From the NCBI GenBank assembly GCA_033398695.1, contig CM065804.1:37339501-37403500 (forward strand): a stretch of DNA of 64,000 nucleotides. Reading direction: 5' to 3'. This document shows positions 7,320 through 64,000 of the stretch, piece after piece. Origin of the DNA: Orobanche coerulescens. Its lineage: Eukaryota > Streptophyta > Magnoliopsida > Lamiales > Orobanchaceae. A program made the translations under genes and the position numbers. Within the stretch, counting starts at the first letter, position 1; each line of letters opens with the position of its first letter. The notes beneath the pieces are model-generated. The model was given only the letters and a program-made list of their open reading frames with translations. It was not told the DNA's origin and did no database searches.

Positions 7320-7502
7320 TGTAATATCCTCATATTTATGTTCACTATATTTTCATTTTTTTTGGTGTAATTCTCATAATTTTTGCTCGGAACTGCCGTA
7401 CGGGGTTGCCGTAGATCCATTGTATGTTATCATACGTATTGTGTTGTTCCGTTTGATGCTTCGTTCGTGCTTTGGTGTTTCGGACCGTTGTTACCCTGTG
7501 CC

Positions 7503-7922
7503 TAACGCGCGCTAATGTTATTGTATAGCGCACGCTAAACATCCTTCAGTAGCGCACGCTAGCGAGTCTGTCCAGTACTAGACAATTTGCTACTAGACTC
7601 GGTCAGGTGCCCAGGTAGCGCACGCTATGGCCGATAGCACGCGCTACCGATACGCTTTTAGCGCACGCTATGTTTGGCCGGCAGCGCACGCTAACGGGGT
7701 TAGGTGAGTACTGGGCAGTTCACTTCTGGACTCGGCTGATGTCCAGGTAGCGCACGCTATGGCCGATAGCACGCACTACCGAGAGGCTATTAGCGCATGC
7801 TACGTTTCGGGTAGCGCACGCTAACGGCCCATAAATCTGGTTACTGGACTGGGACGTTAACTTTCTGGACTTGAGTTTTGTCCCGTTAGCGCACGCTAAC
7901 TTTTCAGGATTAGCGTGCTCTA
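7503..7922 (+). repeat. TAGCGYRCGCTA palindrome cluster, Gyp1 LTR
   Basis: About a dozen 12-bp units with 5-bp inverted arms TAGCG/CGCTA and a variable YR centre. Exact TAGCGCACGCTA copies are near 7527, 7549, 7616, 7658, 7747, 7811 and 7885, with degenerate copies between (TAGCACGCGCTA, CAGCGCACGCTA, TAGCGCATGCTA). Spacing is irregular, from about 10 to 70 bp. The cluster ends just before the TATA box. Confidence 0.93.
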
Positions 7923-7934
7923 ACGCTTCCTGGC

Positions 7935-7942
7935 TATATAAA
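7935..7942 (+). promoter_or_regulatory. Gyp1 LTR TATA box
   Basis: TATATAAA immediately downstream of the palindrome cluster, in the position of the U3 core promoter. Confidence 0.75.
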
Positions 7943-8626
7943 CCAGGGAGTTGACCCATATTTTTACCTTTTCTCATTTCTTCTCCTCCCCGCGGCTTAG
8001 AGCTCCATCAGGCGATTTTCGGGCGATCACTTCCTCCGATCATTTCAAGCGTATTCTACCTTGAGATTTTGAAGTAGATTAACAACACCTACTTGTGTTC
8101 TTCATCCTCAATCCAAGGTAAATCTCTTAAAACCCTACTTTTGCGAAATTTGGGGGTTTTTGGATTTTGGTCCGTTTCGTTCCATTTTGTTGGTTAATTC
8201 ATGATGAATATGATTAATCTTGCTAGTATTCTTGTTTTCCCTACGGATTCATGGTATATTTTGTGGTTGTTGCGTATTCGAGAGGGTTTGGTTGTGGTCC
8301 ACCCTCGTTGTTATTTTATACGAATATACATGTATCGTAGGCGGGTTTTCGGGTGTATTCCATTTCCATATTCGTTTAGAGTTGGTTGTGATTATGTTCT
8401 TCGAATCATTAGGTTCCGTTCCCTTGGTTCCTAGCATTCGTTGGTGATTTTCCTTTCCGTTCATTGCGTCGTCAATTATCCAAGGCAAATATTTTTGGAA
8501 ACCTTTATGCTTAACGTGGAATGGTAATGTATATTGTGTTTGATTTGCTCACCTCGGGAGGGTCCGACGGGGCCACGGAGGGAGTCCAATGGTTCGAGCC
8601 CTGGATTCATGAGTTTGTTTAGCTAG

Positions 8627-8782
8627 CCAGCTCGGGAGGGTCCTTAGAGGCCTCGAGTGGGATTTGTGGCTTCGTCCCGGTCCTAGGCGATGCACGTGCA
8701 TGATTTGTTTTATGATATGGCCAGCTCGGGAGGGTCCTTAGAGGCCTCGAGTGGGATTTGTGGCTTCGTCCCGGTCCTAGGC
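8627..8782 (+). repeat. 62-bp direct repeat in Gyp1 LTR
   Basis: Positions 8627-8688 and 8721-8782 are the same 62 bases (beginning CCAGCTCGGGAGGGTCCTTA), a 94-bp period. A shorter related stretch (CTCGGGAGGGTCCGACGGGG) lies just upstream near 8552. This is a local tandem duplication inside the LTR transcript region. Confidence 0.9.
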
Positions 8783-9343
8783 AAATGTGATTGACTGTTT
8801 GTTTCCGTAAAAGACATGTCTGGTTTTGGTTTTGAAATGATTTGGTGCATTTTACTATGAAACATGTAAGCGAATGGTTTGCCTTGATTACTTGTACTAG
8901 AGTAATTGCTAACCCCTTTGGGGACCCGTTTTGGGGAAATTCTTGTTATGGATTTCAGGTTATGTTCTACCGGACGAGCGGGCGCTGGGATAGTACGAGG
9001 ATGTTGGCCAGGGTCGTTGACATGTGCATTCGAGTCTTCTTATTTCTCTTGTCTTTTTTGATATGGTTGTTTCCCACATTTATAAACTTATAGATTGTAC
9101 TCATGAGTACCTAGGCTTTTCACTCCGAATTTCATTTTGTATCAACTCAAATTGCTATATTGTCGGTTGATGTTTATTACGTCGGTTGCTCCGGGCGTAT
9201 CTTTATATGTCATATTATTTAAATGAGTGTCCTCGCTAACTGAGATGGTTAGTCGAGTGGTGTTTTTCTTGCTTTAGCCTAGTGGGTCCCATATAGGGGT
9301 CCACGGCGCTGTAATATACTCCGAATATCCCGGGGGTGTTACA

Positions 9344-11605: not shown

Positions 11606-13087
11606 CAACGTCCTAAATGAAAATGTCGGTCGCTCGAACAACCTTGAATAACACAATTACCAATAATCCATTCAATACACATATCAAACACGATTATAAC
11701 CAACTCAAATGTCGATACAACAATATCCAAACTCGTAGATGCACTCTAACGAATACGTTGAAAATATCCTTCCCGTTGGTTACAACCAAATACCAAATTA
11801 TCGAAACCAACTTTCAAATGATTGATTCAAACCAGCAAAACAATATCAATGGCATCAATAATCCAATAGGAATCCACAATTCAAGATTACAACAACATCA
11901 ATCGGAAGTCCCCAAATTAACCGAAGTCAGCCCCAAGGGTCCTTGAAATAAATCCCCAAAATAGCCATTAAATCCATAGGAATATATTTATCCAAGGTAG
12001 ATAATCCATATCTAACATATTCCAACAACAATCCAAGCTTACACGAAGAAATCGGAAGGAAAAACCCAAAAATCCGAAATTCTAGATCCAAGAGATTAAT
12101 ACCTTTGATTTGATGTTTGAAGGTGATGAAATGATGATTACTCCGGATTATACGGTTGAAGATGATGATTGATGATTACACCTCGAAGAATACTCTCCAA
12201 AACGCTCCAAATCGCCTGGAACCGATGAGAGAATGAGAAGAAATGACAAATGATGAAACCGGGGCTACACTGTCCAATTTATAGAAATCCCAGTTTAGCG
12301 CGCGCTAGCCCCAGTTCTTAGCGTGCGCTAACGGGTGTTTTGGGTAGTCCAGTACCCACTGTCCGAAAACGGTAGCGTGCGCTACGTACCTTTTGTAGCA
12401 TGCGCTACGGCTGTACACTTAACGTGCGCTAACCCCGGAATGTTAGCGTGCGCTAACGAATTATCTGATTCCCAGTACTGGAGTCCAGAACCTTCTGTCC
12501 TCTGATATGATCGCGGTAGCATGCGATGCAATCAATATTTAGCGTGCGCTACAACATCGTTTGCGTACGCTAAAAATCACTCATAACGTGCGCTATGAAT
12601 TAATCCCATTCAGTCCAGTAGCCACTGGACTCAACCTGATCCGGCCTTATCGCGCGCTACACCGACTGTATAGCGTGCGCTACTTCGGCTTACTAGCGCG
12701 CGCTACTTACCATTCGTAGAGTGCGCTACTTACAACCCAACTGCAGTCCAGTGCCTTCTGGACTGCCTGCTTGAAACATACTAGCGTACGCTAGTGTTGA
12801 GAGGTAGCGTGCGCTACCCGTACTCAATTAGCGTACGCTAAAGAGAGTACATAGCGTGCGCTACTCCTCACACACAGCATACCATGAAAATGACAATTAT
12901 GACAAACATCTCACGATTCTCCAACTAGATTGATGATGAATGACGATTGATACACGATACAATTACTCTGAACGAAGAATACAATGATTGAATATGAGTG
13001 ATAAATGATCAATAGTGAGTGAGAATTACTGAGTGACAATTACTGAATGATAAATACTGAATGATAATGACTGAATTACAGCTGGGT
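11606..13087 (-). repeat. Gyp2s duplicated segment, copy 1
   Basis: Begins AACGTCCTAAATGAAAATGTC and runs to GAATTACAGCTGGGTATT. It holds the R/U5-side sequence, a TATA box (minus CTATAAA, 12278-12284) and a palindrome cluster (12296-12863). It aligns by eye nearly base for base with 13145-14591. Confidence 0.9.
12296..12863 (-). repeat. TAGCGYRCGCTA palindrome cluster, Gyp2s copy 1
   Basis: About 18 units. On the plus strand most read TAGCGTGCGCTA, so the element's sense strand reads TAGCGCACGCTA. TAGCGCGCGCTA and TAGCGTACGCTA (perfect palindromes) also occur. The hairpin AGTCCAGTAGCCACTGGACT lies within it at 12612-12631. The TATA box adjoins on the downstream (left) side. Confidence 0.93.
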
Positions 13088-13144: not shown

Positions 13145-14591
13145 ACGTCCTAAATGAAAATGTCGGTCGCTCGAACAACCTTGAATAACACAATTACCAA
13201 TAATCCATTCAATACACATATCAAACACGATTATAACCAACTCAAATGTCGATACAACAATATCCAAACTCGTAGATGCACTCTAACGAATACGTTGAAA
13301 ATATCCTTCCCGTTGGTTACAACCAAACCCTTATTATCGAAACCAACTTTCAAATGATTGATTCAAACCAGCAAAACAATATCAATGGCATCAATAATCC
13401 AATAGGAATCCACAATTCAAGATTACAACAACATCAATCGGAAGTCCCCAAAATAACCGAAGTCAACCCCAAGGGTTCTTGAAATAAATCCCCAAAATAG
13501 CCATTAAATCCGTCGGAATATATTTATACAAGGTAGATAATCCATATCTAACATATTCCAACAACAATCCAAGCTTACACGAAGAAATCGGAAGGAAAAA
13601 CCCAAAAATACGAAATTCTAGATCCAAGAGATTAATACCTTTGATTTGATGTTTGAAGGTGATGAAATGATGATTACTCCTCGAAGAATACTCTCCAAAA
13701 CGCTCCAAATCGCCCAGAATCGATGAGAGAATGAAAAGAAATGACAAATGACGAAATCGGGGCTACACTGTCCAATTTACAGAAATCCCAGTTTAGCGCG
13801 CACTAGCCCCAGTTCTTAGCGTGCGCTAACGGGTGTTTTGGGTAGTCCAGTACCCACTGTACGAAAACGGTAGCGTGCGCTACGTACCTTTTGTAGCGTG
13901 CGCTACGGCTGTACACTTAGCGTGTCCTAACCCCGGAATGTTAGCGTGCGCTAACGAATTATCTGATGCCTAATACTGGAGTCCAGAACCTTCTGTCCTC
14001 TGATCTGATCGCGGTAGCGTGCGCTGCAATCAATATTTAGCGTGCGCTACAACATCGTTTGCGTACGCTAAAAATCACTCATAACGTGCGCTATGAATTA
14101 ATCCCATTCAGTCCAGTAGCCACTGGACTCAACCTGATTCGGCCTTAGCGCGCGCTACACCGACTGTATAGCATGCGCTACTTCGGCTTACTAGAGCGCG
14201 CTACTTACCATTCGTAGCATGCGCTACTTACAACCCAACTGCAGTCCAGTGCCTTCTGGACTGCCTGCTTGAAACAAACTAGCGTACGCTAGTGTTGAGA
14301 GGTAGCGTGCGCTACCCGTACTCAATTAGCGTATGCTAAAGAGAGTACGTAGCGTGCGCTACTCCTCACACACAGCACACCATGAAAATGACAACGATGA
14401 TAAACATCACACGATTCTCCAACTAGATTGATGATAAATGACGATTGATACACGATACAATTACTCTGAACGAAGAATACAATGATTGAATATGAGTGAT
14501 AAATGATCAATAATAAGTGAGAATTACTGAGTGACAATTACTGAATGATAAATACTAAATGATAATGACTGAATTACAGCTGGGTATTACA
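13145..14591 (-). repeat. Gyp2s duplicated segment, copy 2
   Basis: Repeats copy 1 from AACGTCC to the LTR end. Its palindrome cluster spans 13794-14361 and its hairpin 14110-14129. The TATA position reads AATTTACAG instead of AATTTATAG, so the second core promoter is damaged. It lacks about 50 bp present near 12130-12180 of copy 1. Confidence 0.9.
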
Positions 14592-16565: not shown

Positions 16566-19005
16566 TGTAACACCCCCAAACTAGGCGGATATTACAATGC
16601 CGTGGACCCCCGACTGGGACCTACTAGGCGAATGAAAATGAATGAATTACATAGGGTAAATGTAGTACCGAACCACATTACAACAATAACTACTCCGATG
16701 AGGAGTTTCATATAACACATCCAGGATAATACAGAATACATGTATATTTTATATGGAGATAAAATATACAACACTGAGTGAAATGAGTATTCAAACGGAA
16801 TGTCTGCAGCGGAATAAATGAAGGAAACATAAATGACTGAAAAGACTGGGGCCCCCTTCTATTATCATTGGGACTCCTCGCCGTCAATGTGCTCTCCCCG
16901 TGCTTTCACCTTGCCATGACCTGAAAAACAATATCCCCCAACGGGGTCAGTTACACAGAACAACAATCATCAAGAGTTGAATATACACAATCCTGTCGAA
17001 ACATACGCAATCAAACATGCTATATGAATCAACTAACGGTACGGCTCAAAGGGTGGCGCCACACTACGCCCGGGATGGAAATGTGTCCGTGCACAAGCCA
17101 CCAATGAGTATCGATCGAATACACATGTGGTCTTGTACCTAATCAGTCTCACGAAGCAATCGACTCGTGTGCACAGTCCAATGTGAGGCCAACAACCATC
17201 ACACGACTTAAATGTGCCCGACATGAAAATCCTACACATACCAACCGGCATGCCAGTATGACCCGGAATGCCACGATATAACAAAAGTGACATCGAAAAT
17301 GAATAATGACTCACCGAGATGAAATGATAGTGAAATGAATGACAACTCAATGAAATGATTGGAACCGTCGTTCCTTATGACCGAGGTGATTAATTGACAA
17401 TGACAAGTTTTGATACGGTTAATACATTGATGAATGAGTTACGATTATGAATGAACAACAACAAAAGGAATGAATATCCTTTTAACCGAGTAAGAATTAA
17501 CTTACACAACCGGTGAAGAATCTCCGTCCACGAACAACGTCCTAAATGAAAAGTCGGTCGCTCGAACAACCTTGAATAACACAATTACCAATAATTCGAT
17601 CAATACACGCATCAAACACGATTATAACCAATTCAAACGTCGATACAACAATATCCAAACTCGTAGGTGCACTCTAACGAAATACGTTGAAAATATCCTT
17701 CCCGTTGGTTACAACCAAAACCCAATTTATCGAAACCAACTTTCAAATGATTGATTCAAACCAGCAAAACAATATCAATGGCATCAATAATCCAATAGGA
17801 ATCCACAATTCATGATTACAACAACATCAATCGGAAATCCCCAAATTAACCGAAGTCAACCCCAAGGGTTCTTGAAATAAATCCCCAAAATAGTCATTAA
17901 ATCCATAGGAACATATTTATCCAAGGTAGATAATCCATATATAACGTGTTCCAACAACAATCCAAGCTTATACGAAGAAATCGGAAGGAAAAACCCAAAA
18001 ATCCGAAATTCTAGATCCAAGAGATTAATACCTTTGATTTGATGTTTTGGAGATGATGAAGTGATGATTATTACAACTCAAAGACTTGAAGATGATGATT
18101 GATGATTACACCTCGAAGAATACTCTTCAAATCGCTCCAAAATCGCCCGGAACCGAAGAGAGAAAGTGAAGAAATGACAAATGCCGAAATCTGGGCTAAC
18201 TGTCCAATTTATAGTGATTCCAGTTTAGCGCGCGCTAGCCCCCTATGCTTAGCGTGCGCTAACGGGTATTTTGGGTAGTCCAGTACCCACTGTCCGACAA
18301 CGGTAGCGCGCGCTACGTACCTTTGGTAGCGTGCGCTATGGATGTACATTTGGCGTGCGCTAACCCCAAATGTTAGCGTGCGCTAACGAATTATCTGATG
18401 CCCAGTACTGGAGTCCAGAAACCTTCTGTCCTCTGATCTGATCTCGGTAGCGTGCGCTACAATCAATATTTAGCGTGCGCTACAATATCGGTTGCATATG
18501 CTAAAAACCACTCATAGCGTGCTGAATTAATCCGATGCAGTCCAGTAGCCACTGGACTCGACCTGATTCGACCTTAGCGCGCGCTATACCGACTGCATAG
18601 CGTGCGCTACTCCGGCCTACTAGCGCGCGCTACTTACCATTCGTAGCGTGCGCTACCTGCTCACTGCCGATCCGGTGCCTTCGGATCGCAGCCAGGACAA
18701 CATTAGCATGTGCTAATGCTGAGTGGTAGCGTGCGCTACCTGTACTCAATTAGCGCGCGCTAAATAGAGTACGTAGCGTGTGCTACTCCTCACACACAGT
18801 CCACCATGAAGATGACAAAGATGATACGCTCGGCCCGACTATCCAACCGGGTTGAATGATGAAATAACACTGATACGCGATACTAATAAACTCTGAACGG
18901 TGAATACAATGAATGAAATAAACGGTGAATTATCATTAATGAGTGAAAAAATTACTGAGTGACAAATACTGAACGATAATGAATGGATTACAACTGGGTA
19001 TTACA
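16566..19005 (-). repeat. Gyp2 3' LTR
   Basis: Plus strand TGTAACACCCCCAAACTAGG to AACTGGGTATTACA, 2.44 kb. It carries a TATA box (minus CTATAAA, 18208-18214), a palindrome cluster (18226-18785) and a hairpin (18539-18558). It matches the Gyp2 5' LTR closely and Gyp2s without the duplication. Confidence 0.95.
18226..18785 (-). repeat. TAGCGYRCGCTA palindrome cluster, Gyp2 3' LTR
   Basis: About 18 units, mostly TAGCGTGCGCTA on the plus strand (TAGCGCACGCTA in sense), plus several TAGCGCGCGCTA. A few are degenerate (TTGCATATGCTA, TTAGCATGTGCTA). The TATA box lies about 12 bp away on the downstream side. Confidence 0.93.
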
Positions 19006-24236: not shown

Positions 24237-26252
24237 TGTAACACCCCCAAACTAGGCGGATATTACAGTGCCGTGGACCCCCGACTGGGACCCACTAGGC
24301 GAATGAAAATGAATGAATTACACAGGGTAAATGTAGTACCGAACCACATTACAACAATAATTACTCCGATGAGGAGTTTCATATAACAGATCCAGGATAA
24401 TACAGAATACATGTATATTTTATATGGAGATAAAATATACAACACTGAGTGAAATGAGTATTCAAACGGAATGTCTGTAGTAGAATAAATGAAGGAAACA
24501 TAAATGACTGAAAAGACTGGGGCCCCCTTCTAGTATCATTGGGACTCCTCGCCGTCAACGTGCTCTCCCCGTGATTTCGCCTTGCCATGACCTGAAAAAC
24601 AATATCCCCCAACGGGGTCAGTTACACAGAACAACAATCCTCATGAGTTGAATATACACAATCCTGTCGAAACATACGCAATCAAACATGCTATATGAAT
24701 CAACTAACAGTATGGCTCAAAGGGTGGCGCCACACTACGCCCGATATGGAAATGTGTCCATGCACAAGCCACCAACGAGTATCGATCGAATACACGTGTG
24801 GTCTTGTACCTAATCAGTCTCACGAAGCAATCGACTCGTGTGCACAGTCCAATGTGAGGCCAACAACCATCACACGACTTAAATGTGCCCGACATGAAAA
24901 TCCTACACATACCAACCGGCACGCCAGTATGACCCGGAATGCCACGATGTAACAAAAGTGACATCGAAAATGAATAATGACTCATCGAGATGAAATGATA
25001 GTGAAATGAATGACAGCTCACTGAAATGATTGGAACCGTCGTTCCTTATGACTGAGGTGATTAATTGACAATGACAAGTTTTGATACGGTTAATACATTG
25101 ATGAATGAGTTACGATTATGAATGAACAACAACAAAAGGAATGAATATCCTTTTAACCGAGTAAGAATTAACTTACACAACCGGTGAAGAATGTCCGTCC
25201 ATGAACAACGTCCTAAATGAAAAGTCGGTCGCTCGAACAACCTTGAATAACACAATTACCAATAATTCAATCAATACACGCATCAAACACGATTATAACC
25301 AATTCAAACGTCGATACAACAATATCCAAACTCGTAGGTGCACTCTAACGAAATATGTTGAAAATATCCTTCCCGTTGGTTACAACCAAAACCCAATTTA
25401 TCGAAACCAACTTTCAAATGATTGATTCAAACCAGCAAAACAATATCAATGGCATCAATAATCCAATAGGAATCCACAATTCAAGATTACAACAACATCA
25501 ATCGGAAATCCCCAAATTAACCGAAGTCAACCCCAAGGGTTCTTGAAATAAATCCCCAAAATAGTCATTAAATCCATAGGAACATATTTATCCAAGGTAG
25601 ATAATCCATATCTAACGTGTTCCAACAACAATCCAAGCTTATACGAAGAAATCGGAAGGAAAAACCCAAAAATCCGAAATTCTAGATCCAAGAGATTAAT
25701 ACCTTTGATTTGATGTTTTGGAGATGATGAAGTGATGATTAATACAACTCAAAGACTTGAAGATGATGATTGATGATTACACCTCGAAGAATACTCTTCA
25801 AATCGCTCCAAAATCGCCCGGAACCGAAGAGAGCAAGTGAAGAAATGACAAATGCCGAAATCTGGGCTAACTGTCCAATTTATAGTGATTCCAGTTTAGC
25901 GCGCGCTAGCCCCCTATGCTTAGCGTGCGCTAACGGGTATGTTGGGTAGTCCAGTACCCACTGTCGGACAACGGTAGCGCATGCTACGTACCTTTGGTAG
26001 CGTGCGCTATGGATGTACAATTGGCGTGCGCTAACCCCAAATGTTAGCGTGCGCTAACGAATTATCTGATGCCCAGTACTGGAGTCCAGAAACCTTGTGT
26101 CCTCTGATCTGATCTCGGTTGCGTGCGCTACAATCAATATTTAGTGTGCGCTACAATATCGATTGCGTACGCTAAAAACCACTCATAGCGTGCGCTATGA
26201 ATTAATCCGATGCAGTCCAGTAGCCACTGGACTCAACCTGATTCGACCTTAG
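24237..26252 (-). repeat. Gyp2 5' LTR, truncated
   Basis: Starts TGTAACACCCCCAAACTAGG like the 3' LTR and follows it closely for 2.0 kb. It breaks at GACCTTAG (26245-26252), where the 3' LTR continues CGCGCGCTATACC. About 430 bp of the U3 distal end is missing. TATA box (minus) at 25879-25885; hairpin at 26214-26233. Confidence 0.93.
25897..26252 (-). repeat. TAGCGYRCGCTA palindrome cluster, Gyp2 5' LTR (cut)
   Basis: About ten units of the same series as in the 3' LTR. The last is cut after TTAG, so the deletion breakpoint lies inside a palindrome. Confidence 0.92.
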
Positions 26253-27135: not shown

Positions 27136-27229
27136 TGTTGACTCAAAAGTATTTTGATGATGATTAGATCCAAAACATTTAATAAAATCTATCTCAGTAA
27201 GCTGCTCTATTGAAGATGAAAAACGTTCA

Positions 27230-28031
27230 TAGCGCACGGTACATAATGTATCGTAGCGCACGCTATCGAAGCTCATATGCAGGCAAGTCAAATCAGCCGC
27301 AGTCAAGTTGGAATCCTACCTGATGGCTTACACACGCAAAATATCTATTATTAGTGCACGATATATTACAAAATTAGCGCACGCTATATTCCTTATCTAA
27401 CGCACGCTATCGCATCCAAGTCAGAGAGGACAGTAAGGTCTGTAAAGAAAAGAAGGAATTCATCTGCGCACGCTATGGAAGAATATTTACGCACGCTATT
27501 CTGACTCATTAGCGCACGTTACCTAGAAAATCTTGTGCATGCTACCGGAAAACATGTTTGGTAGTCCAGTAGCCACTTGACTCAAAATAAGGAAGCACTT
27601 ATGTACGATATACAAGCTAACGTACATTAGTGAGGAAAGTATATAGCGCACGCTATTCAACACTTATTAGCGCACACTAAAACATTCAAATTTCTACCAT
27701 TGGACAATTTACCCATTGGAATGCAGAAGTCAATAGAAGATGTCGTAAATATGGAAAGTTAATATTAAATAATACTACCGCACGCTATTTACAATTGGTA
27801 GCGCACGCTAAGTATAAATATATCCGTTGGGAAAGAGTCGTTGGGGAGACAAACCGACATAATCTAAAGTCAAGATTAAGACATGTTGACCAACCGTTAG
27901 CGCACGCTACGAAGGTATGACTAGCGCACGCTAGACATATAATTTACCATTGGAATAGTTTTGTGATGGTTCAGATCGGCCAAGTCGGAAAACGATTGCG
28001 CACGCTATGGAGGTATTATTAGCGCACGCTA
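27230..28031 (+). repeat. TAGCGYRCGCTA palindrome cluster, Cop3 5' LTR
   Basis: About 16 units reading TAGCGCACGCTA in the sense direction, several exact (near 27253, 27374, 27641, 27901, 27922, 28020) and others decayed (TAACGCACGCTA, TGCGCACGCTA, TAGCGCACACTA). The cluster ends about 35 bp before the TATA box, the same arrangement as in the gypsy LTRs. Confidence 0.93.
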
Positions 28032-28066
28032 ATAATACAGATTTCAGCATATGAAGGACTTGATAC

Positions 28067-28074
28067 TATAAATA
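28067..28074 (+). promoter_or_regulatory. Cop3 LTR TATA box
   Basis: TATAAATA followed by CCCATAGGACTTGGG. The same sequence is at 35921-35928 in the 3' LTR. Confidence 0.8.
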
Positions 28075-28671
28075 CCCATAGGACTTGGGTATCTCACACA
28101 CAACTTCAAGAATTCTATATAAGCAATCAAAGCATTCTTGAGCTCAGTTTTCTATCTTTTATTGCATTCTAAGTTGTGATGAGAAAGATACAAAGAGTGA
28201 TACATCTTGTATGTTTATTATACTTTGTTTTCTTTCATTTGGTTATGAGTGTTGCATCACTCATACAAGGGCGTTAGAGAAACTAATTTAGAGTCACTAA
28301 TCTAGTGTTATTAGGATCTTTGATCCGGCATTATTAGGATTACACTCCAATATTCGTAATTAGGGATTATCTAGTTCCAATAGAACACTAGATAAACAAA
28401 GTTTATTTTGAGAGTGGTTGAGCTTGGACCAATAGAAGACAAGCGGTTGTAACAGTTGTTGTACTCGGACCGATCGAAGACGAGTCAAGTGTGTGGTTGT
28501 TTTTGAGCCAATAGAAAAATAAGTCGGAGAGAGGACGTAGGCAAGTTGCCGAACCTCTATAAATCTTTGAGTCTTTTACTTTCCACACTATTTTCTTTTA
28601 TTCGCGAGAAAGTTCGATATTCCGTATTACCACTATTCAACCCCCCTTCTAGTGGTGAATTTATCTCTTCA

Positions 28672-31595: not shown

Positions 31596-33309
31596 ATTCA
31601 AAAGAAGACAATCGAGAGTCTACCGAAAGATTGGAGGCACATCAAAGACCATCCAAAAGATCTTGTGATTGGAAACATTGAAGATGATGTTCCAACCCGA
31701 AGGAGAACCATCGAATATATAGCTCATTGTGCTTTCATATCCGAAATAGTTCCCAAGAATATATCCGAGGCTCTTGATGATGAAAGTTGGATGATGGCAA
31801 TGCAAGAGGAGCATGTACAATTCATGCACAATAATGTATGGAATTTAGTTCCCGCTCCTAAAGATAAAATAATTATCGCAACTAAATGGGTGCACAAAAT
31901 CAAGAGTGACGAACACGGTTACCCAATTCGAAATAAATCTCGTTTGGTGGCTCAAGGGTATAATCAAGAGGAAGGCCTTGATTACGAAGAAAGTTTTGCT
32001 CCCGCAGCTCGACTCGAAGCCATCTGTTTGTTATGTGCATTTGACGCTCACAAAAAGATCAAACTATTTCAAATGGATGTGAAAAGTGCATTCTTGAATG
32101 GCTACATTCAAGAAGAAGTCTATATCAAGCAACCTCCCAGTTTTGAAGATTACCAATTTTCGGATCACATCTACAAGCACTTGTTAGGTACTCTACGGGT
32201 TGAAACAAGCACTCCGAGCATGGTATGATCGTTTAAGTCAATTTCTAATTGCAAATGATTATAAAAGAGGTAAAGTCGATAGTACCTTGTTTGTGAAAAT
32301 ATTGAATAATGATATACTTGTTTGCCAAATCTATGTTGATGACATTGTTTTTGGAGCTACTAATGAATCATTGTGCCAAGATTTCTCTAATCTTATGAAA
32401 GGAGAGTTCGAGATGAGTATGATGGGAGAATTAACAGTCTTCCTCGGGCTTCAAATCAAGCAATGTGAAGATGGAATCTTTATTCATCAAACAAAGTACT
32501 CAAACGATCTCCTAAAGAAATTCAAAATGGAGAGTAGCAAAGTGATTTCAACGCCAATGTCCTCTTCATTAAAGCTTGAAAAAGATGAAAATGGCAAATC
32601 CGTAGATCAAAAATTATATCGAGGTATGATCGGATCTTTGCTATATTTGACTGCTTCTAGGCCAGACATAATATTTGGTACATGCTTATGTGGTCGATTC
32701 CAAGCTAATCCCAAGGAATCACATTTAATTGCTTATAAACGCATTTTTCGTTACTTGATAGGGACCATCGGACTAGGTCTATGGTATCCCTCTTGCTTGG
32801 ACTTTAATTTGATTGCATATAGTGACGCCAATTTCGGAGGATGCAAAATTGATAAAAAGAGTACTAGTGGTAAATGTCATTTCATCGTTTCATGCTTAAT
32901 ATCTTGAGAAAGTAAAAAGCAAACTAGTGTAGCGTTGTCTACAGCTGAGGCCGAATATGTTGATGCAGGGAGCGCCTGTGCTCAGGTACTATGGATTAAA
33001 AATATGGCATTTATTTTGAAAATACCCCTATTTTATGTGATAATATTAGTGCAATAAATTTGAGCAAAAATCCTGTGTTATAGTAGGACTAAGCATATAG
33101 ATATTAGACATCACTTTCTACGCGAGCATGTGCAAAAGAAAGGCATTTGCTTAACTTTTGTCGGGACGAGAGATCAACTAGCTGATATCTTTAGGAAACC
33201 TCTTCCCGGGGAATCATTTAATTCTATTCGCTTGCAACTTGGTATGGGACATCTTGACAATTTTTTAAACAAGTTGTCTACTCGAGAAATCAATCGCTTC
33301 ATTCGCTAG
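31596..33309 (+). pseudogene. Cop3 reverse transcriptase and RNase H (broken)
   Basis: 31665-32228 holds the RT front ([63 protein letters not shown]). A frameshift at about 32185 precedes [13 protein letters not shown]. 32200-32907 holds the palm with YVDD intact, MSMMGELTVFLGLQIKQ, SLLYLTASRPDI and YSDANFGGC. A TGG-to-TGA stop at 32905 starts the decayed RNase H: TAEAEYVDAGSACAQVLWIK, then frameshift, TKHIDIRHHFLREHV, QLADIFRKPLPGESF and LGMGHLDN. The stop codon TAG at 33307 forms the first three bases of a TAGCGCGCGCTA palindrome. Confidence 0.93.
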
Positions 33310-33318
33310 CGCGCGCTA
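33307..33318 (+). repeat. TAGCGCGCGCTA unit at the end of Cop3 pol
   Basis: A perfect 12-bp palindrome of the LTR series, found here outside the LTR and overlapping the pol stop codon. Confidence 0.85.
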
Positions 33319-33433: not shown

Positions 33434-34629
33434 ATGTCGAGCAAGGGAAGAAAAGTTATGGAGAAGGCTTACAAAAGCACAAAACGTACCCGCGAACCAG
33501 AATATGATGCATCTCGTTTTGTGTCTTATACCGCTTTCAAGGTATTTTCGGAAATCCTCCCTCTGGAGCACTTAACCAAGGTAAATATCCGTGAATTGTT
33601 TGAAGCCTTGAGTATTGCTCAACTCGTAGAATGCAAAGAAATTATCTATCCTTCATTTGTTCGAGAGTTCTATGCTAACATGCATCTGGGAGATGGTGAG
33701 GGCTCCTCTGGTGGCTTAGTGCTCAATAGCTTGGTTAACGGAAATGTAGTGAAGGTTTCTTTGGAAATTCTTCATGAGCTATTTGGATTGACGTTTGAAG
33801 GTTTTACTTATAGTGGGAAGTCCATTGTTGATGAATCAGACTTGACTGAGAATGAAGTTGCCAATTTTCTATGTTCGAAAGTTGTCATCGAGGTTACCAA
33901 TGAAGTTTTCGAAAACAACTATTTTGGTCGCACTTACGAAATATTTGATGCCTAAAGTGAAAACGCAACATAAACTTGTCGGCATCGATAAACATGTGCT
34001 ATACCGGGTGTTGAACGAGGATAAGGTGGATTTCACCTCGATTGATATAAATTGGATGAAGGCGAAAGGAGACTCTTTCTGCTCCAAACACTATTTGTCG
34101 AGAACGCGGAAATCTGGACTTCCATTCGGATCTATTTTGACTGTGATTTTCTGTCGCTTCAATGTTGACTTGTCGGGCGAGGCATCGATTCCGGTATCTC
34201 GGGGACACGAGATTAGAGACCTCACCCTCAAAGCAATGCATTATGTTGAAACCATTAATAGAGGTTGGGTGTTATTCTTGTATCTCCGGGAAGACGACCA
34301 AGTTACAAAAGGAACGCGAACACCGACTACGGCCGAACGTGTTCTTCATAGAGGATCACAAATGCTTCGGGAACTACAAACCGGAACGTTTGTTCGTCAT
34401 CCGAAAACTAAAGGCAAACAATCGATGAAAGATTCTGTCACCGAGGAAGAAAAGAGTGACCTCATTGCCCGGATGCGGAGCATCAAGACCTCACAGATGG
34501 AAATTCGTGAGGATATTCGGTCTCTACGTTAGGAAGTCCGAGAAGTTCGTGGGCTGATTTCAGATTTCATTCGATTCACTCACCCGTCATTCCCGTTCCC
34601 ATCCTCTTCATCCGACCAAGCTCCTTAGA
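33434..34629 (+). pseudogene. Cop3 third ORF, plant transposon-type domain (frameshift and stop)
   Basis: Begins MSSKGRKVMEKAYKSTKRTREPEYDASRFVS. It reads to 33955 in one frame (FPSFVREFYANMHLGD-type block, LVNGNVVKVSLEILHELFGL), then shifts by one near 33950 and continues LMPKVKTQHKLVGIDKHVLYRVLN to DIRSLR at 34529. After a TAG it goes on with EVREVRGLISDFIRF and ends at 34629. Motifs such as FVREFYANM and the GNVVKVS...LFGL block resemble the domain called putative plant transposon protein, often found 3' of pol in plant retroelements; I infer this by eye. No signal peptide or membrane segment is evident, so an envelope role is not supported. Confidence 0.75.
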
Positions 34630-34950
34630 TTCTAGGAGTTTGATTCTCGATGTAGGAAACCTTGTTTTTGATGTCATGTGCCTTGGTTATGTCATGTTTG
34701 GATCATTTTCATTATTAAAATGCGCATTTCTTCTCTATGTCTCTTGGTTATTGTCTTACAGATGTTTTGTTAATATGTCCGTGCCATATTGTGTTATATA
34801 TGCAAATCTTCAGGGGGAGTCCGTTTTGTTAATGTCAAAAAGGGGGAGAAAACACTCCAAAACCGAACATACTAACATATCGAACAAATCACTTTGATTC
34901 GAATTTTTTAAATGGTTTTGCAGGAAAATATTAAATGTTTTGACATCATT
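34630..34950 (+). other. Cop3 3' untranslated region with two extra polypurine tracts
   Basis: T-rich non-coding stretch between the third ORF and the 3' LTR. It holds polypurine tracts at about 34810-34819 (TCAGGGGGAG) and 34837-34850 (AAAAAGGGGGAGAA), in addition to the one at 34951. Such repeated tracts are characteristic of Sireviruses. Confidence 0.8.
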
Positions 34951-34964
34951 AAAAAGGGGGAGAT
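34951..34964 (+). promoter_or_regulatory. Cop3 polypurine tract next to the 3' LTR
   Basis: AAAAAGGGGGAGAT immediately before the 3' LTR: the plus-strand primer. Confidence 0.9.
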
Positions 34965-36499
34965 TATTGAATCAAAAGTATTTTGATGATGATTAGATCC
35001 AAAACATTTAACAAAATCTATCTCAGTAAGCTGCTCTATTGAAGATGAAAAACGTTCCTAGCGCACGCTACATAATGCATCGTAGCACATGCTATCGAAG
35101 CTCATATGCAGGCAAGTCAAATAGTTGCAGTCGAGTTGGAATCCTACCTGATGGCTTACGCACGCAAAGTATCTATTATCAGCGCACGCTATATTACAAA
35201 ATTAGCGCACGCTATATTACAAAATTAGCGCACGCTATGTTCCTTATCTAACACACGCTATCGCATCCAAGTCAGAGAGGACAATAAGGTCTGGAAAGAA
35301 AAGAAGGAATTCATCTGCGCACGCTACAGAAGAATATTTACGCACGCTATTCTGACTCATTAGCGCATGTTACCTAGCAAATCTTGCGCACGCTACCGGA
35401 AAACAAGTTTGGTAGTCCAGTAGCCACTGGACTCAAAATAAGGAAGCACTTACGTACGCTATACAAGCTAACGTACGTTATGAGGAAACTATATAGTGCA
35501 CGCTATTCAACACTTATTAGCGCATGCTAAAACATTCAAATTTATACCGTTGGACAATTTACCCATTGGAACGCAGAAGTCAAAAGAAGATCCGAGAAAT
35601 CTGGAAAGTTAATATTAAATAATACTAGCGCACGCTATTTACAATTTGTAGCGCACGCTAAGTATAAATATATCGTTGGGAAAGAGTTGTTGGGGAGACA
35701 AACCGACATAATCTAAAGTCAAGATTGAAGACCTGTTGACCAACCGTTAGCGCACGCTACGAAGGTATGACTAGCGCACGCTAGATATATAATTTTACCG
35801 TTGGAATAGTTTTGTGACCGTTCAGATCGACCAAGTCAGAGAACGATATTGCAAGCTATGGAGGTATTATTAGCGCACGATAATAATACAGATTTTAGCA
35901 TATGAAGAAGGACTTGATACTATAAATACCCATAGGACTTGGGTATCTCACACACAACTTCAAGCATTCAAGTATACAAGCAATCAAAGCATTCTTGAAC
36001 TCAGTTTTCTATCTTTTATTGCATTCTAAGTTATGAGGTGAAAGATACAAAGAGTGATACATCTTGTAATACTTATTATACTTTGTATTCTTTCATTTGG
36101 TTGTGAGTGTTGCATCACTCATACAATAGCGTTAGAGACACGAATTTAGAGTCACTAATCCGGTGTTATTAGAATCTTTGATCCGGCATTATTAGGATTA
36201 CACTCCAATATTCGTAATTAAGGATTATCTAGTTCCAATAGAACACTAGATAAACAAAGTTTATTTTGAGAGTGGTTAAGCTTGGACCAATAGAAGACAA
36301 GCGGTTGTAACTGTTGTTGTACTCGGATCGATCGAAGACGAGTCAAGTGTGTGGATGTTCTTGACCCAATAGAAAAAGAAATCGGAGAGAGGACGTAGGT
36401 AGGTTTACTTTCCACACTATTTTCTTATATTTCCGAGAAAGTTCGATATTCCACATCACCACTATTCAACCCCCTTCTAGTGGTGAATTTATCTTTTCA
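34965..36499 (+). repeat. Cop3 3' LTR
   Basis: Starts TATTGAATCAAAAG (the first TG is mutated to TA) and ends TTATCTTTTCA. It has a palindrome cluster at 35059-35882, an exact hairpin at 35414-35433 and a TATA box at 35921-35928. TTTAG follows at 36500. Confidence 0.95.
35059..35882 (+). repeat. TAGCGYRCGCTA palindrome cluster, Cop3 3' LTR
   Basis: The same series as the 5' LTR with a different set of decayed units and one extra unit near 35200-35240, where TAGCGCACGCTATATTACAAAAT is duplicated. Most units still read TAGCGCACGCTA in sense. Confidence 0.92.
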
Positions 36500-53794: not shown

Positions 53795-55866
53795 TGTAAC
53801 ACCCCCAAGACGTTCAGGGCATATTACAGCGCCGTGGACTCCACACTATGGAATCCACCAGGCTAACGTACCAACAAGACATTTGACAACGACAAACAAT
53901 CATCAATAATACGACAATTCAAATAAGATTACAATCCGACAATAAAATCCGACATCAATCCATTTCCCAAAACTGGAACACAACATTAACAATTTTGAAA
54001 TAAGAAGTACTCGAGTACTTAAACCAATTTTATAACACAAAGGTCCCAAAACAAGACATCAAAAGTAATAGACCGAACTGAACACCAACAAATGACAACT
54101 GATCAGTATCACGCTTGCCCATCATCCTCATACGGCTCAAGTGCTCATTTGTCCCCACGATCGATACCTGAAATACAAAAAGTATTTCCCCCATTTAAGG
54201 GGTTAGCGACAACTGCTAGTGCAAGTACAATCCATTTGAACTACATTCTAATCAGATGAATATATGCGCCAAAAGTCATTTTAGAAATATTTTATATTTC
54301 GGAATATTTACAATGTATAATCACAAAACACATTATCTCCAACAAATCACAATTCAAAGTTAACCGTTGGTACGAGACTCACGGCCACCGTACCCCGCAG
54401 AGCCCCGTCGGACATCCCTGGGTGACTAACCACAGTTCACGATACGCACACTCACGGTAATACGTATCCCTAGAGGCCCCGTCGGACCGTCCCTAGGTGA
54501 ACATACACATAACCATACACAACCACCACGATACAGCCATAATTCAAATACTAGAACATGTAAACAAATGTAAAGTACTTGCCTTTGAGACATTCTTGAA
54601 GAAACGGAAGTGAAACACAACTACGAACGGGCCGGGTGGAAAACGACGGTTCCTAAACGAAGGATCAACATAGTTCAGTCCCAACCGACAATAATAACCG
54701 ATCGGAATACACCCATAATCCCCGATTACAATTCATGACGAAAACGTTCAATCGATACGGGCGAGGGTTTACGTAAAATCTCCCCGTATCAATAGTTCGC
54801 GGATTAAAATAGAGAAAAACGGATTGGGAATCACCCAATAACAATAATCAGTGAGGAATATCACAACGTACTAGAATAATTCGAGTCCAATTAGCAAAAC
54901 CCGGAAAAACCCCCAAATTTGACGAGTTAGGGTTCTAGACGAAAATACCTTGAATTCGGACGATGGATGATGATTATGCTGATGACAATATGTTAACACG
55001 ACTCTACGGTGATGGAATTTGAAGAGAACTCCGATCAGTACCGGTGGAAATCGCCTCTGAGGTCGCACGTCGAAGAAACGAAGAGAAAAGAATAAAACTG
55101 ATGTTCTGAAACTGCCCGCTGACTTATATAATCTGTGAAGTTAGCGCACGCTAACTGCCATATATAGCGCGCGCTAACGTGGCCGTGACAGGTCCAGTGG
55201 CTACTGCCACCATTCGTTAGCGTATGCCAACAATAGGGGGTTAGCGTACGCTAAATGCTTATCGGTAGCGCATGCAAGGTAACAGGAGTAGCGTACGCTA
55301 CCTACACAAGCTTGATCGGGCTGATGTCACATCGCCAGCTCAAGATCGGGCGATGTCACATCGGCAGAAGTCATTGTCGAGGGTACAATACACGAAATGC
55401 ATGACGAGACCAGAATCCAGGAACATGAACGCGAAGCATACAAGACGACGGAGCTAAGCGCTGAAAGAAAAATACAATTCCGACCACCGAAGGGTCCGTA
55501 ATGTGACAACGAAAACGAGATTTCCCTAAACTATTAGGAAATTACAAAAATGGCCCAAATGACCGAAAATCACGAAACAACGTTGGATTTACAAACCGGA
55601 AGTCTCAACACGACCAACTCAATCATACGAACTTGTACAAACCAAGAAACAACGAAAACGAACGAGTTTTACAAGAATCGAACGTTCATACCGCAAAACA
55701 TGTCACAGAATGAAATTACGTGAAAACATCATCAAAACTCGTCCAAATGGAAAAACTCCAAGAACAAAGTCGATTCGAAATGTCGAAACGGTTACAAGCG
55801 AGTCGATAAAAATAGACATACACTAAAAATGGAAACTGCTAAAAATGGAAAATTACGGATATTACA
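53795..55866 (-). repeat. Gyp4 LTR 1
   Basis: TGTAACACCCCCAAGACGTTC to ATTACGGATATTACA, 2.07 kb. TATA box (minus TATATAA) at 55124-55130; palindromes at 55142-55300. A duplicated GATCGGG...GATGTCACATCG unit at 55314-55367 is single in LTR 2. Confidence 0.95.
55142..55300 (-). repeat. TAGCGYRCGCTA palindrome cluster, Gyp4 LTR 1
   Basis: Six units: TAGCGCACGCTA, TAGCGCGCGCTA, TAGCGTATGCCA, TAGCGTACGCTA, TAGCGCATGCAA, TAGCGTACGCTA (plus strand). On the plus strand 55192-55205 reads GTCCAGTGGCTACT, the complement of 14 bases of the Gyp2/Cop3 hairpin. The cluster is upstream of the TATA box on the element strand. Confidence 0.92.
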
Positions 55867-55882
55867 TTCTCCCCCTCTAAAA
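55867..55882 (-). promoter_or_regulatory. Gyp4a polypurine tract
   Basis: TTCTCCCCCTCTAAAA on the plus strand beside the LTR, then TTTCGTCCCGAAACTT, the short hairpin also next to the Gyp1 and Gyp2 LTRs. Confidence 0.85.
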
Positions 55883-55899
55883 TAAAGTTTCGTCCCGAA

Positions 55900-58300: not shown

Positions 58301-58301
58301 A

Positions 58302-58312
58302 CTCTGATACCA
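58302..58312 (-). promoter_or_regulatory. Gyp4a primer-binding site, fused to RT
   Basis: TGGTATCAGAG on the minus strand, five bases inside LTR 2. RT coding sequence (TTC-ATG/AGG-CAGCTTATG) follows at once, with no leader, gag or protease. Confidence 0.92.
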
Positions 58313-58317
58313 TATTC

Positions 58318-60359
58318 TGTAACACCCCCAAGACGTTCAGGGCATATTACAGCGCCGTGGACTCCACACTATGGAATCCACCAGGCTAACGTACCAACAA
58401 GACATTTGACACGGACAAACAATCATCAATAATACGACAATTCAAATAAGATTACAATCCGACAATAAAATCCGAAATCAATCCATTTCCCAAAACAGGA
58501 ACACAACATTAACAATTTTGAAATAAGAAGTACTCGAGTACTTAAACCAATTTTATAACACAAAGGTCCCAAAACAAGACATCAAAAGTAATAGACCGAA
58601 CTGAACACCAACAAATGACCACTGATCAGTATCACGCTTGCCCATCATCCTCATACGGCTCAAGTGTTCGTTTGTCCCCACAATCGATACCTGAAATACA
58701 AAAATTATTTCCCCCATTTAAGGGGTTAGCGACAACTGCTAGTGCAAGTACAATCCATTTGAACTACATTCTAATCAGATGAATATATGCGCCAAAAGTC
58801 ATTTTAGAAATATTTTATATTCCGGAATATTTACAATGTATAATCACAAAACACATTATCTCCAACAAATCACAATTCAAAGTTAACCGTTGGTACGAGA
58901 CTCACGGCCACCGTACCCCGCAGAGCCCCGTCGGACATCCCTGGGTAGCTAACCACAGTTCACGATACGCACACTCACGGCAATACGTATCCCTAGAGGC
59001 CCCGTCAGACCGTCCCTAGGTGAACATACACATAACCATCCACAACAACAACGATACAGCCATAATTCAAATACTAGAACATGTAAACAAATGTAAAGTA
59101 CTTGCCTTTGAGACATTCTTGAAGAAACGGAAGTGAAACACAACTACGAACGGTCCGGGTGGAAAACGATGGTTCCTAAACGAAGGATCAACATAGTCCA
59201 GTCCCAACGGACAATAATAACCGATCGGAATACACGCATAATCTCTAATTACAATTCATGACGAAAACGTTCAATCGATACGGGCGAGGGTTTACGTAAA
59301 ATCTCCCCGTATCAACAATTCGCGGATTAAAATAGAGAAAAACGGATTGGGAATCACCCAATAACAATAATCAGTGAGGAATATCACAACGTACTAGAAT
59401 AATTCGAGTCCAATTAGCAAAACCCGGAAAAAACCCCAAATTTGACGAGTTAGGGTTCTAGACGAAAATACCTTGAATTCGGACGATGGATAATGATTAT
59501 GCTGATGACAATATGTTAACACGACTCTACGGTGATGGAATTTGAAGAGAACTCCGATCAGTACCGGTGGAAATCGCCTCTGAGGTCGCACGTCGAAGAA
59601 ACGAAGGGAAAAGAATAAAAGTGATGTTCTGAAACTGCCCGCTGACTTATATAATCTGTGAAGTTAGCGCACGCTAACTGCCATATATAGCGCGCGCTAA
59701 CGTGGCCATGACAGGTCCAGTGGCTACTGCCACCATTCGTTAGCGTATGCTAACAATAGGGGGTTAGCGTACGCTAAATGCTTATCGGTAGCGCACGCAA
59801 GGTAACAGGAGTAGCGTACGCTACCTACAGCCAGTCAAGATCTGCTGATGTCACATCGCCAGAAGTTTGCCGAGGGTACAATACACGAAATGCATGACGA
59901 GACCAGAATCCAGGAACATGAACGCGAAGCATACAAGACGAAGGAGCTAAGCTCTGAAAGAAAAATACAATTCCGACCACCGAAGGGTCCGTAATGCGAC
60001 AACGAAAACGAGATTTCCCTAAACTATTAGGAAATTACAAAAATGGCCCAAATGACTGAAAATCACGAAACGACGTTGGATTTACAAACCGAAAGTCTCA
60101 ACACGACCAACTCAATCATACGAACTTGTACAAACCAAGAAACAACGAAAACAAACGAGTTTTACAAGAATCGAACGTTCATACCGCAAAACATGTCACA
60201 GAATGAAATTACGTGAAAACATCATCAAAACTCGTCCAAATGGAAAAACTACAAGAACAAAGTAGATTCGAAATGTCGAAACGGTTACAAGCGAGTCGAT
60301 AAAAATAGACATACACTAAAAATGGAAACTGCTAAAAATGGAAAATTACGGATATTACA
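58318..60359 (-). repeat. Gyp4 LTR 2
   Basis: The same termini as LTR 1, 2.04 kb. TATA box at 59647-59653; palindromes at 59665-59823. It serves as the 5' LTR of copy a and the 3' LTR of copy b, as expected for a tandem array. Confidence 0.95.
59665..59823 (-). repeat. TAGCGYRCGCTA palindrome cluster, Gyp4 LTR 2
   Basis: The same six units as in LTR 1. The third is better preserved here (TAGCGTATGCTA), and the fifth reads TAGCGCACGCAA. Confidence 0.92.
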
Positions 60360-62620: not shown

Positions 62621-62631
62621 CTCTGATACCA
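62621..62631 (-). promoter_or_regulatory. Gyp4b primer-binding site, fused to RT
   Basis: TGGTATCAGAG joined to TTCATGCAGCTTATG (FMQLM of RT). The same junction as copy a, with the ancestral-looking Met. Confidence 0.92.
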
Positions 62632-62636
62632 TATTC

Positions 62637-64000
62637 TGTAACACCCCCAAGACGTTCAGGGCATATTACAGCGCCGTGGACTCCACACTATGGAATCCAC
62701 CAGGCTAACGTACCAACAAGACATTGACAATGACAAACAATCATCAATAATACGACAATTCAAATAAGATTACAATCCGACAATAAAATCCGACATCAAT
62801 CCATTTCCCAAAACAGGAACACAACATTAACAATTTTGAAATAAGAAGTACTCGAGTACTTAAACCAATTTTATAACACAAAGGTCCCAAAACAAGACAT
62901 CAAAAGTAATGGACCGAACTGAACACCAACAAATGACCACTGATCTGTATCACACTTGCCCATCATCCTCATACGGCTCAAGTGCTCGTTTGTCCCCACG
63001 ATCGATACCTGAAATACAAAAATTATTTCTCCCATTTAAGGGGTTAGCGACAACTGCTAGTGCAAGTACAATCCATTTGAACTACATTCTAATCAGATGA
63101 ATATATGCGCCAAAAGTCATTTTAGAAATATTTTATATTCCGGAATATTTACAATGTATAATCACAAAACACATTATCTCCAACAAATCACAATTCAATG
63201 TTAACCGTTGGTACGAGACTCACGGCCACCGTACCCCGCAGAGCCCCGTCAGACATCCCTGGGTAGCTAACCACAGTTCACGATACGCACACTCACGGCA
63301 ATACGTATCCCTAGAGGCCCCGTCGGACCGTGCCTACGTGAACATACACATAACCATCCACAACAACCACGATACAGCCATAATTCAAATACTAGAACAT
63401 GTAAACAAATGTAAAGTACTTGCCTTTGAGACATTCTTGAAGAAACGGAAGTGAAACACAACTACGAACGGTCCGGGTGGAAAACGATGGTTCCTAAACG
63501 AAGGATCAACATAGTTCAGTCCCAACGGACAATAATAACCGATCGGAATACACCCATAATCTCCTATTACAATTCATGACGAAAACGTTCAATCGATACG
63601 GGCGAGGGTTTACGTAAATCTCCCCGTATCAACAATTCGCGGATTAAAATAGAGAAAAACGGATTGGGAATCACCCAATAACAATAATCAGTGAGGAATA
63701 TCACAATGTACTAGAATAATTCGAGTCCAATTAGCAAAACCCGGAAAAAACCCCAAATTTGACGAGTTAGGGTTCTAGACGAAAATACCTTGAATTCGGA
63801 CGATGGATGATGATTATGCTGATGACAATATGTTAACACGACTCTACGGTGATGGAATTTGAAGAGAAATCCGATCAGTACCGGTGGAAATCGCCTCTGA
63901 GGTCGCACGTCGAAGAAACGAAGAGAAAAGAATAAAACTGATGTTCTGAAACTGCCCGCTGACTTATATAATCCGTGAAGTTAGCGCACGCTAATTGCCA
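62637..64000 (-). repeat. Gyp4 LTR 3 (continues past the window)
   Basis: Starts TGTAACACCCCCAAGACGTTC and follows LTR 2 nearly base for base to the window end. TATA box at 63964-63970 and the first palindrome unit TAGCGCACGCTA at 63982-63993. Confidence 0.95.

Follow-up and report, generated by a model that had tools for sequence, protein, structure and literature searches.

One palindromic word upstream of TATA in copia and gypsy LTRs of a plant genome, and different palindrome codes on closely related LTRs

Arrays of one palindromic word, code A (TAGCGYRCGCTA), sit upstream of TATA in LTRs of both superfamilies, namely those of the Sirevirus-like copia element Cop3 and those of several gypsy families, and close relatives of these gypsy elements carry different words. 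Judged from sequence, the arrays are probably sites for a trans-acting, probably dimeric protein, most likely a host transcription factor, and are carried on exchangeable U3 cassettes.

The window (the whole 64-kb stretch that was analysed) is plant DNA consisting mostly of nested LTR retrotransposons. Pfam identified copia-type gag, integrase and RT in Cop3 (28-35 kb, plus strand), gypsy-type gag and protease in Gyp2 (18-26 kb, minus strand), and gypsy RT, RNase H and integrase in Gyp4 (55-64 kb, minus strand). The RT and integrase of Gyp2 were assigned by similarity to Gyp4. The array coordinates reported in an earlier note on this DNA check out, and the features are as follows.

27136..28671, plus strand: Cop3 5' LTR (copia, Sirevirus-like); LTR ends located, 92% against the 3' LTR
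27230..28031, plus strand: code-A array of the Cop3 5' LTR, upstream of a TATA at 28066
33307..33318, plus strand: lone code-A palindrome of Cop3, located at the stop of pol and before the env-like ORF
33434..34532, plus strand: env-like region of Cop3, in which the ORFs 33434-33955 and 33852-34532 overlap and differ in frame
34812..34962, plus strand: terminal PPT octamer AGGGGGAG of Cop3, three copies (34812, 34841, 34955)
34965..36499, plus strand: Cop3 3' LTR, paired with the 5' LTR
35059..35882, plus strand: code-A array of the Cop3 3' LTR
35414..35436, plus strand: S motif run AGTCCAGTAGCCACTGGACTCAA of Cop3, same as the Gyp2s sequence
7320..9343, plus strand: Gyp1 LTR, preceded by a gypsy pol end; right end from the GTGTTACA match only
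7503..7922, plus strand: Gyp1 code-A array, TATA at 7934-7943
12296..12863, minus strand: Gyp2s code-A array
12615..12628, no strand: S motif CCAGTAGCCACTGG of Gyp2s, with further ones at 14113, 18542 and 26217
13794..14361, minus strand: second Gyp2s code-A array
16566..19005, minus strand: Gyp2 3' LTR
18226..18785, minus strand: code-A array of the Gyp2 3' LTR, TATA at 18204-18214
25897..26252, minus strand: array of the Gyp2 5' LTR; LTR similarity stops at 26252
53795..55866, minus strand: Gyp4 LTR
55142..55300, minus strand: Gyp4 code-A array, TATA at 55121-55131
59665..59823, minus strand: code-A array of the second Gyp4 LTR
63982..63993, minus strand: first palindrome of the array in a third Gyp4 LTR; array cut by the window end

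Gyp4 (window 53795-64000) is a row of LTR-internal-LTR-internal-LTR with shortened internal regions, and the ORFs of at least 200 aa in this interval gave no gag match. A protein search with the Gyp4 RT piece found up to 74% identity in Tanacetum coccineum (best 120 of 7,997 scored). The terminal TAG of the Cop3 pol ORF (window 33130-33318) belongs to the lone internal TAGCGCGCGCTA. An env-like ORF after pol is a feature of some Sirevirus members; the first env-like ORF of Cop3 matches PF20167 weakly, at E=0.00043 and 20.6 bits (the curated cut-off is 45).

Cop3 appears in part to have the sequence features of a Sirevirus. Like the PPT repeats of Sireviruses, AGGGGGAG is present three times before the 3' LTR and nowhere else on the plus strand, the likeness being one of repetition. 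The terminal PPT reads AGGGGGAG-AT followed by TATTGA in the 3' LTR, and the 5' LTR begins TGTTGA (Sireviruses have an AT/TG attachment site after the terminal PPT). The Cop3 copy has CA and then GTTGGTATCGGAG (in Sireviruses CA/ATTGG, with the PBS TATCAGAGC). The run CAACCCCCC stands shortly before the 5' LTR end; Sireviruses have a polyC-rich integrase signal of 19 bp near the LTR end.

Exact TAGCGYRCGCTA occurs 69 times in the window and in none of 100 shuffles. A search that tolerated one mismatch to TAGCGNNCGCTA gave 109 window matches, against an expectation of 0.53. The genome-wide scan that the earlier note had proposed found 1,309,842 copies of TAGCGYRCGCTA in the 3.65-Gb host genome and 108 of the reversed pattern, and the code-A arms with a purine-pyrimidine (RY) centre occur 768 times genome-wide versus 221 for the control. 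Within the window, 68 of the 69 exact copies lie inside the LTRs of Gyp1, Gyp2s, Gyp2, Gyp4 and Cop3, and the remaining one (33307) lies within Cop3, between pol and the env-like ORF. Palindrome clusters are absent from 1-7.2 kb and 36.5-54 kb of the window, where other copia elements lie.

The word TAGCG-YR-CGCTA, described in the earlier note as a palindrome, is real and has the core GCG-YR-CGC, but its commonest form is imperfect. With the element sense set by TATA, the centres of 185 sites are CA (140), CG (24), TA (12), TG (8) and GA (1). When the sense was taken from coding regions and LTR similarity, all 30 copia sites and 43 of the 68 gypsy sites had a CA centre; Gyp4 deviates, with TA, TG and CG centres and no CA. 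Deamination of a CG centre was set aside as the sole source of CA and TG because CA outnumbers TG 140 to 8 in element sense. The top changes at single-mismatch code-A sites are G to A at position 3 (20 sites) and A to T at position 2 (15 sites), both of which bring the site closer to TTACG, the half-site of codes B and C. CpG-type transitions are likewise common.

Palindrome clusters (5-bp arms with at least one G or C per arm, at least three repeats) were scanned for in 312 kb comprising the window and 26 places (L010-L035, 248 kb) that were picked before their content was seen. L001-L008 and L036-L041 were drawn from code-A places and are a non-random set. The scan found 36 clusters, and none in five dinucleotide shuffles: 24 of code A (15 in the sample), four of code B (TACGGCCGTA), three of code C (TTACG-CGTAA), two MITE-like and three others (L021, L022, L032). 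The earlier note named two refuting conditions. Absence of the motif elsewhere in the genome does not hold, and as to equal density in non-LTR sequence, the window has one of its 69 copies outside LTRs.

The arrays are regular in spacing and in their position relative to TATA. Of the 238 distances of up to 140 bp between neighbouring code-A sites, 134 measure 23 or 24 bp, and gaps ranging from 41 bp to roughly 100 bp separate groups of sites; no helical phasing is claimed for the longer gaps, the signal being weak and the period not sharp. TATA[AT]A is found within 80 bp on exactly one side of 22 of the 33 code-A clusters and never on both sides (random places, 7% per side), and 11 clusters have no TATA within 80 bp. 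TATA follows the last exact palindrome at a distance of 10-12 bp in 14 of the 22 oriented clusters. The distance is 35-43 bp in four clusters of copia type (one in Cop3, two in L010 and one in L012), 36 bp in Gyp1 and L001, and 21 bp in L030. The Gyp1 gap is 12 bp when its imperfect last palindrome is counted, and in the cluster at window 35626 the TATA match falls inside the array. Short spacers within 12 arrays have an identity of 0.18-0.42 compared to 0.24-0.29 when shuffled; values about 2 SD or more above shuffles were found for Gyp1, the Cop3 3' LTR and L010 (three spacers). Because the short spacers are little more alike than shuffled ones, the arrays are not simple tandem duplicates. 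Head-to-tail copies of a whole unit, as in a tandem satellite, were not found in them, and recent tandem duplication accounts for little of the arrays.

Divergence between elements is concentrated outside the palindromes. Non-CpG differences between the Gyp2 and L023 arrays number 3/131 at motif and 68/326 at spacer positions, and those between Gyp2s and Gyp2 number 7/131 and 35/323, with motif positions masked by a match in either sequence, which slightly favours low motif divergence. At CpG positions, Gyp2 and L023 differ in 11/81 motif and 13/40 spacer cases. Between LTR copies of the same kind, the non-CpG differences in motif and spacer are 9/154 and 24/553 (Cop3), 5/140 and 8/343 (Gyp2s), 1/73 and 4/241 (Gyp2), and 1/48 and 3/178 (Gyp4). 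Motif and spacer decay alike in these same-kind copies, as they would in dead insertions, and the copies bear no mark of selection once inserted. These two patterns indicate that the arms were conserved during the life of the lineages and decay following insertion. It is highly improbable that the arrays have no function and are a mutational product, for instance a satellite or a tract of gene conversion, that has spread through LTRs; their large copy number would suit such an origin, but the 12-mers and their spacing are kept amid near-random spacers, and the elements diverge mainly in those spacers.

The claim that one motif is common to copia and gypsy LTRs was borne out, and a second motif, S (CCAGTRGCYACTGG), is shared as well. 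S sits in long array spacers in both superfamilies. With up to two mismatches, 29 of 30 CCAGTRGCYACTGG matches are in arrays (20.9 kb; 28 in code A and one in code B) and one is in the other 314 kb, and allowing three mismatches gives 34 matches in arrays versus eight elsewhere; because the consensus was built from window arrays and some loci were selected for code A, the independent support comes from the matches in L018, L020, L023 and L025. Exact CCAGTRGCYACTGG occurs 13,034 times genome-wide versus nine for the control. Cop3 and Gyp2s have the same 23-bp run, AGTCCAGTAGCCACTGGACTCAA, in a long spacer (score 46, where the best of 60 shuffles reached 22), and Cop3 and Gyp4 share fifteen identical bases at S (score 30 versus 20 for shuffles). 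The earlier statement that copia and gypsy LTRs do not align outside the palindromic units is not quite right, given this 23-bp run; apart from S, the spacers of Cop3 and the gypsy arrays give no standout alignment. Cop3 spacers compared with Gyp1, L025 and L010 score no higher than the best shuffle, and neither do the spacers of L026, L028 and L025 compared with Gyp2.

The copia and gypsy arrays have roughly even chances of having arisen independently, through selection for sites of the same two factors and with no exchange between superfamilies. This origin is favoured by the lack of spacer alignment apart from S and by a difference in lay-out, the TATA gap being 35-43 bp in the four copia-type clusters and 10-12 bp in 14 others. 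The 23 identical bases at S, which include its non-palindromic centre, and the same CA orientation in both superfamilies argue the other way, toward a possible common origin of the arrays. Independent origin concerns where the arrays came from and not what they do, and can be combined with the transcription factor explanation.

Related gypsy-type LTRs have had their U3 blocks replaced. The L026 LTR is 86% identical to that of Gyp2 at its start (83 columns) and 88% identical over its last 1.26 kb, but its code-B middle cannot be aligned with the code-A middle of Gyp2, the top score being 32 and that of 100 shuffles 30. The code-A L023 aligns with the same Gyp2 block over 1008 columns at 85%. 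The RTs of L023 (A) and L026 (B) are 97% identical over 243 aa, and those of L018 (B) and Gyp4 (A) are 87% identical over 239 aa. A second LTR chassis consists of six LTRs with four codes: C (L028, L030), A (L034, L036), a CGCACGA type (L032) and TGCCGCGGCA (L022). Gypsy gag, RT and integrase adjoin the L028 LTR, and the other members were placed through LTR similarity. All 15 pairs have left flanks of 77-92% identity, and in the four pairs whose right flanks were compared these are 84-92% identical. The middles of the two same-code pairs align (89% over 426 columns and 84% over 520 columns), whereas those of the 13 different-code pairs align over at most 61 columns with scores of 20-41; five of these 13 scores exceed the best shuffle, so small pieces may be shared. 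The module exchange suggested in the earlier note is supported among related gypsy-type LTRs by these replaced blocks between conserved flanks; it is not supported between copia and gypsy, which may have converged on the same sites.

Other words occur beside codes A, B and C. A closed vocabulary of three codes was dropped when L032 and L022, on the same LTR chassis, showed different ones. The repeated words of the L032 block are not clean 12-bp palindromes; inverted and direct CGCACGA and CACACGAG words replace the 12-bp palindrome in its U3 (L032:5390-5600), on the chassis of L028. The L022 U3 (L022:3990-4300) has GTGTGCCGCGGCACAC palindromes, and GTGCCGCGGCAC is likewise present in L019, L021 and L024, a possible further code. 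A tandem repeat of ~60 bp containing GTACATGATGTGTAC was seen by eye at L022:5280-5640. One LTR family mixes code A and C sites (L025:2700-3450, L036:2804-3828); the queries used found no coding relative in L025, and the family may therefore be non-autonomous. A code D (TTCGGATATCCGAA, L016 and L029) was dropped as an LTR palindrome. It belongs to a short MITE-like element (L016:3540-4100, L029:6560-7160), which consists mostly of TTCGGATATCCGAA repeats bounded by inverted ends of the AGGGGTGTTCAAAA type and is not LTR material. The single IMG/VR match (L009) was taken as unrelated, being 71.5% GC DNA unlike the window.

The regular spacing, the place before TATA, the almost invariable YR centre and the conserved arms point to a DNA-binding protein near the promoter. 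The arrays would be promoter-proximal U3 control regions, rows of putative binding sites for a sequence-specific protein acting in trans. This factor and a second one at the S motif may together drive LTR transcription. Copia and gypsy families would share a code because they depend on the same factor, and close relatives would differ in code because recombination between elements, or template switching, exchanges the U3 block as a cassette, which could give access to another factor. The common host factor proposed in the earlier note fits the spacing, the place before TATA, the orientation-specific centre and the arm conservation, although the factor and its binding are what we infer from them. 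Strict orientation is unusual for an enhancer site and counts against this explanation, as do the 11 clusters lacking a nearby TATA, the decay of motifs in inserted copies, the unclean words of L032 and the capacity of arrays to fold as RNA. The TWRCGNNCGYWA class is present 228 times in L010-L035 versus once for the control class, and together with the mismatch trends toward TTACG this suggests that codes A to C may have related readers. NAC proteins are a lead only, as they fit just part of the sites. The ANAC092 consensus T[TAG][GA]CGT[GA][TCA][TAG] (PMC4106437, Table 3) fits the TAGCGTG and TAGCGTA halves and code C, and 160 of the 185 oriented code-A sites have at least one fitting half, but CG-centred code A and code B do not fit. 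Inverted NAC sites, as described in PMC4106437, have several bases between the halves and the palindromes here have none, and ATAF2 is reported in PMC3507807 to bind a different, A/T-rich site.

Two other roles for the arrays were weighed against that of transcription factor sites. They could be targets of VANC-type anti-silencing proteins, which seems unlikely. According to PMC5735166, the targets of VANC are short words that have accumulated in noncoding repeats and differ from one related element to another, and AT9TSD1, which is unrelated to VANDAL, also has VANC6 motifs. The arrays are also repeated noncoding words; codes differ among close relatives, and one code is common to two superfamilies. 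However, the last site lies 10-12 bp from TATA in most oriented clusters, as for transcription activators, a scan of 17 of the 18 ORFs of 200 aa or more showed nothing like an added factor gene, and the Cop3 env-like region yielded only the weak PF20167 match. A role for the palindromes as nucleic-acid structure, with hairpins in read-through RNA feeding siRNA and codes diversifying to escape silencing, is very unlikely. RNA folding gave z = -6.85 for the Gyp2s array (0/100 shuffles as stable) and z = -2.47 for the Cop3 array (0/20 shuffles), so a small-RNA role is possible, though the Cop3 signal is weak. One study reportedly dealt with silencing at maize Sirevirus palindromes. The palindrome regions of maize Sireviruses are described as hotspots of small-RNA mapping (PMC5311732). 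The CA centre breaks perfect self-complementarity yet is preferred over CG 140 to 24, and structure alone would call for neither the 23-24 bp spacing nor a single word in each array nor a position ahead of TATA. In a broader scheme, both superfamilies would compete for a few dedicated trans-acting factors through a changeable palindrome 'password', with U3 cassettes moving within gypsy and between gypsy and copia, and codes turning over in an arms race with host silencing, in a VANC-like manner. This scheme is conceivable but doubtful.

The nearest known thing is the repeated motif (RM) box of Sireviruses, which is described as a palindromic word present in many copies in U3 upstream of TATA, with extra copies upstream of the env-like gene (PMC2829016). 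Code A is likewise a multicopy palindromic word in U3 upstream of TATA, and Cop3 has one internal copy before its env-like ORF. The Sirevirus comparison in the earlier note was therefore apt, Cop3 having Sirevirus features, but the Cop3 motif departs from the CGG-CCG core that nearly all RMs described in PMC2829016 possess (Tnd-1 excepted). The RM is also called Sirevirus-specific and absent from classic retrotransposons (PMC2829016), whereas the code-A word is in gypsy LTRs together with a second shared motif. Subfamilies of Tnt1 and Retrolyc1 consist of elements that are otherwise alike and are distinguished by the U3 regulatory region (PMC1838419). These elements form one copia group, the accessible text of PMC1838419 mentions no gypsy-shared code, and here several codes are interchanged within one LTR chassis. 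VANDALs, which are DNA transposons (PMC12844716), have short words multiplied in noncoding regions that differ in related elements (PMC5735166, PMC10398659). VANC motifs are 8-9 bases long, the string 'palindrom' is absent from the PMC5735166 main text, and a VANC-like gene was not seen here in the scanned ORFs and env-like region.

The known kinds are the Sirevirus palindromes and the variable Tnt1 U3; the sharing between superfamilies and the swapped codes are new. Neither one palindrome word common to copia and gypsy LTRs nor interchangeable palindrome codes were found in the literature searched (titles and abstract openings, among the matches listed, with most subscription papers outside it). 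The findings suggest that the control region of an LTR retrotransposon can evolve apart from its coding region and change hands as a unit, and that elements may rely on one trans-acting factor even though their enzymes are unrelated. The sites, which are short, abundant and centre-specific, occur in natural variants, such as codes A, B and C, on LTRs that are close relatives, and this makes a direct test of the factor possible. If the proposal is true, a single protein acting at 1.31 million sites of one word could license or silence much of a 3.65-Gb genome.
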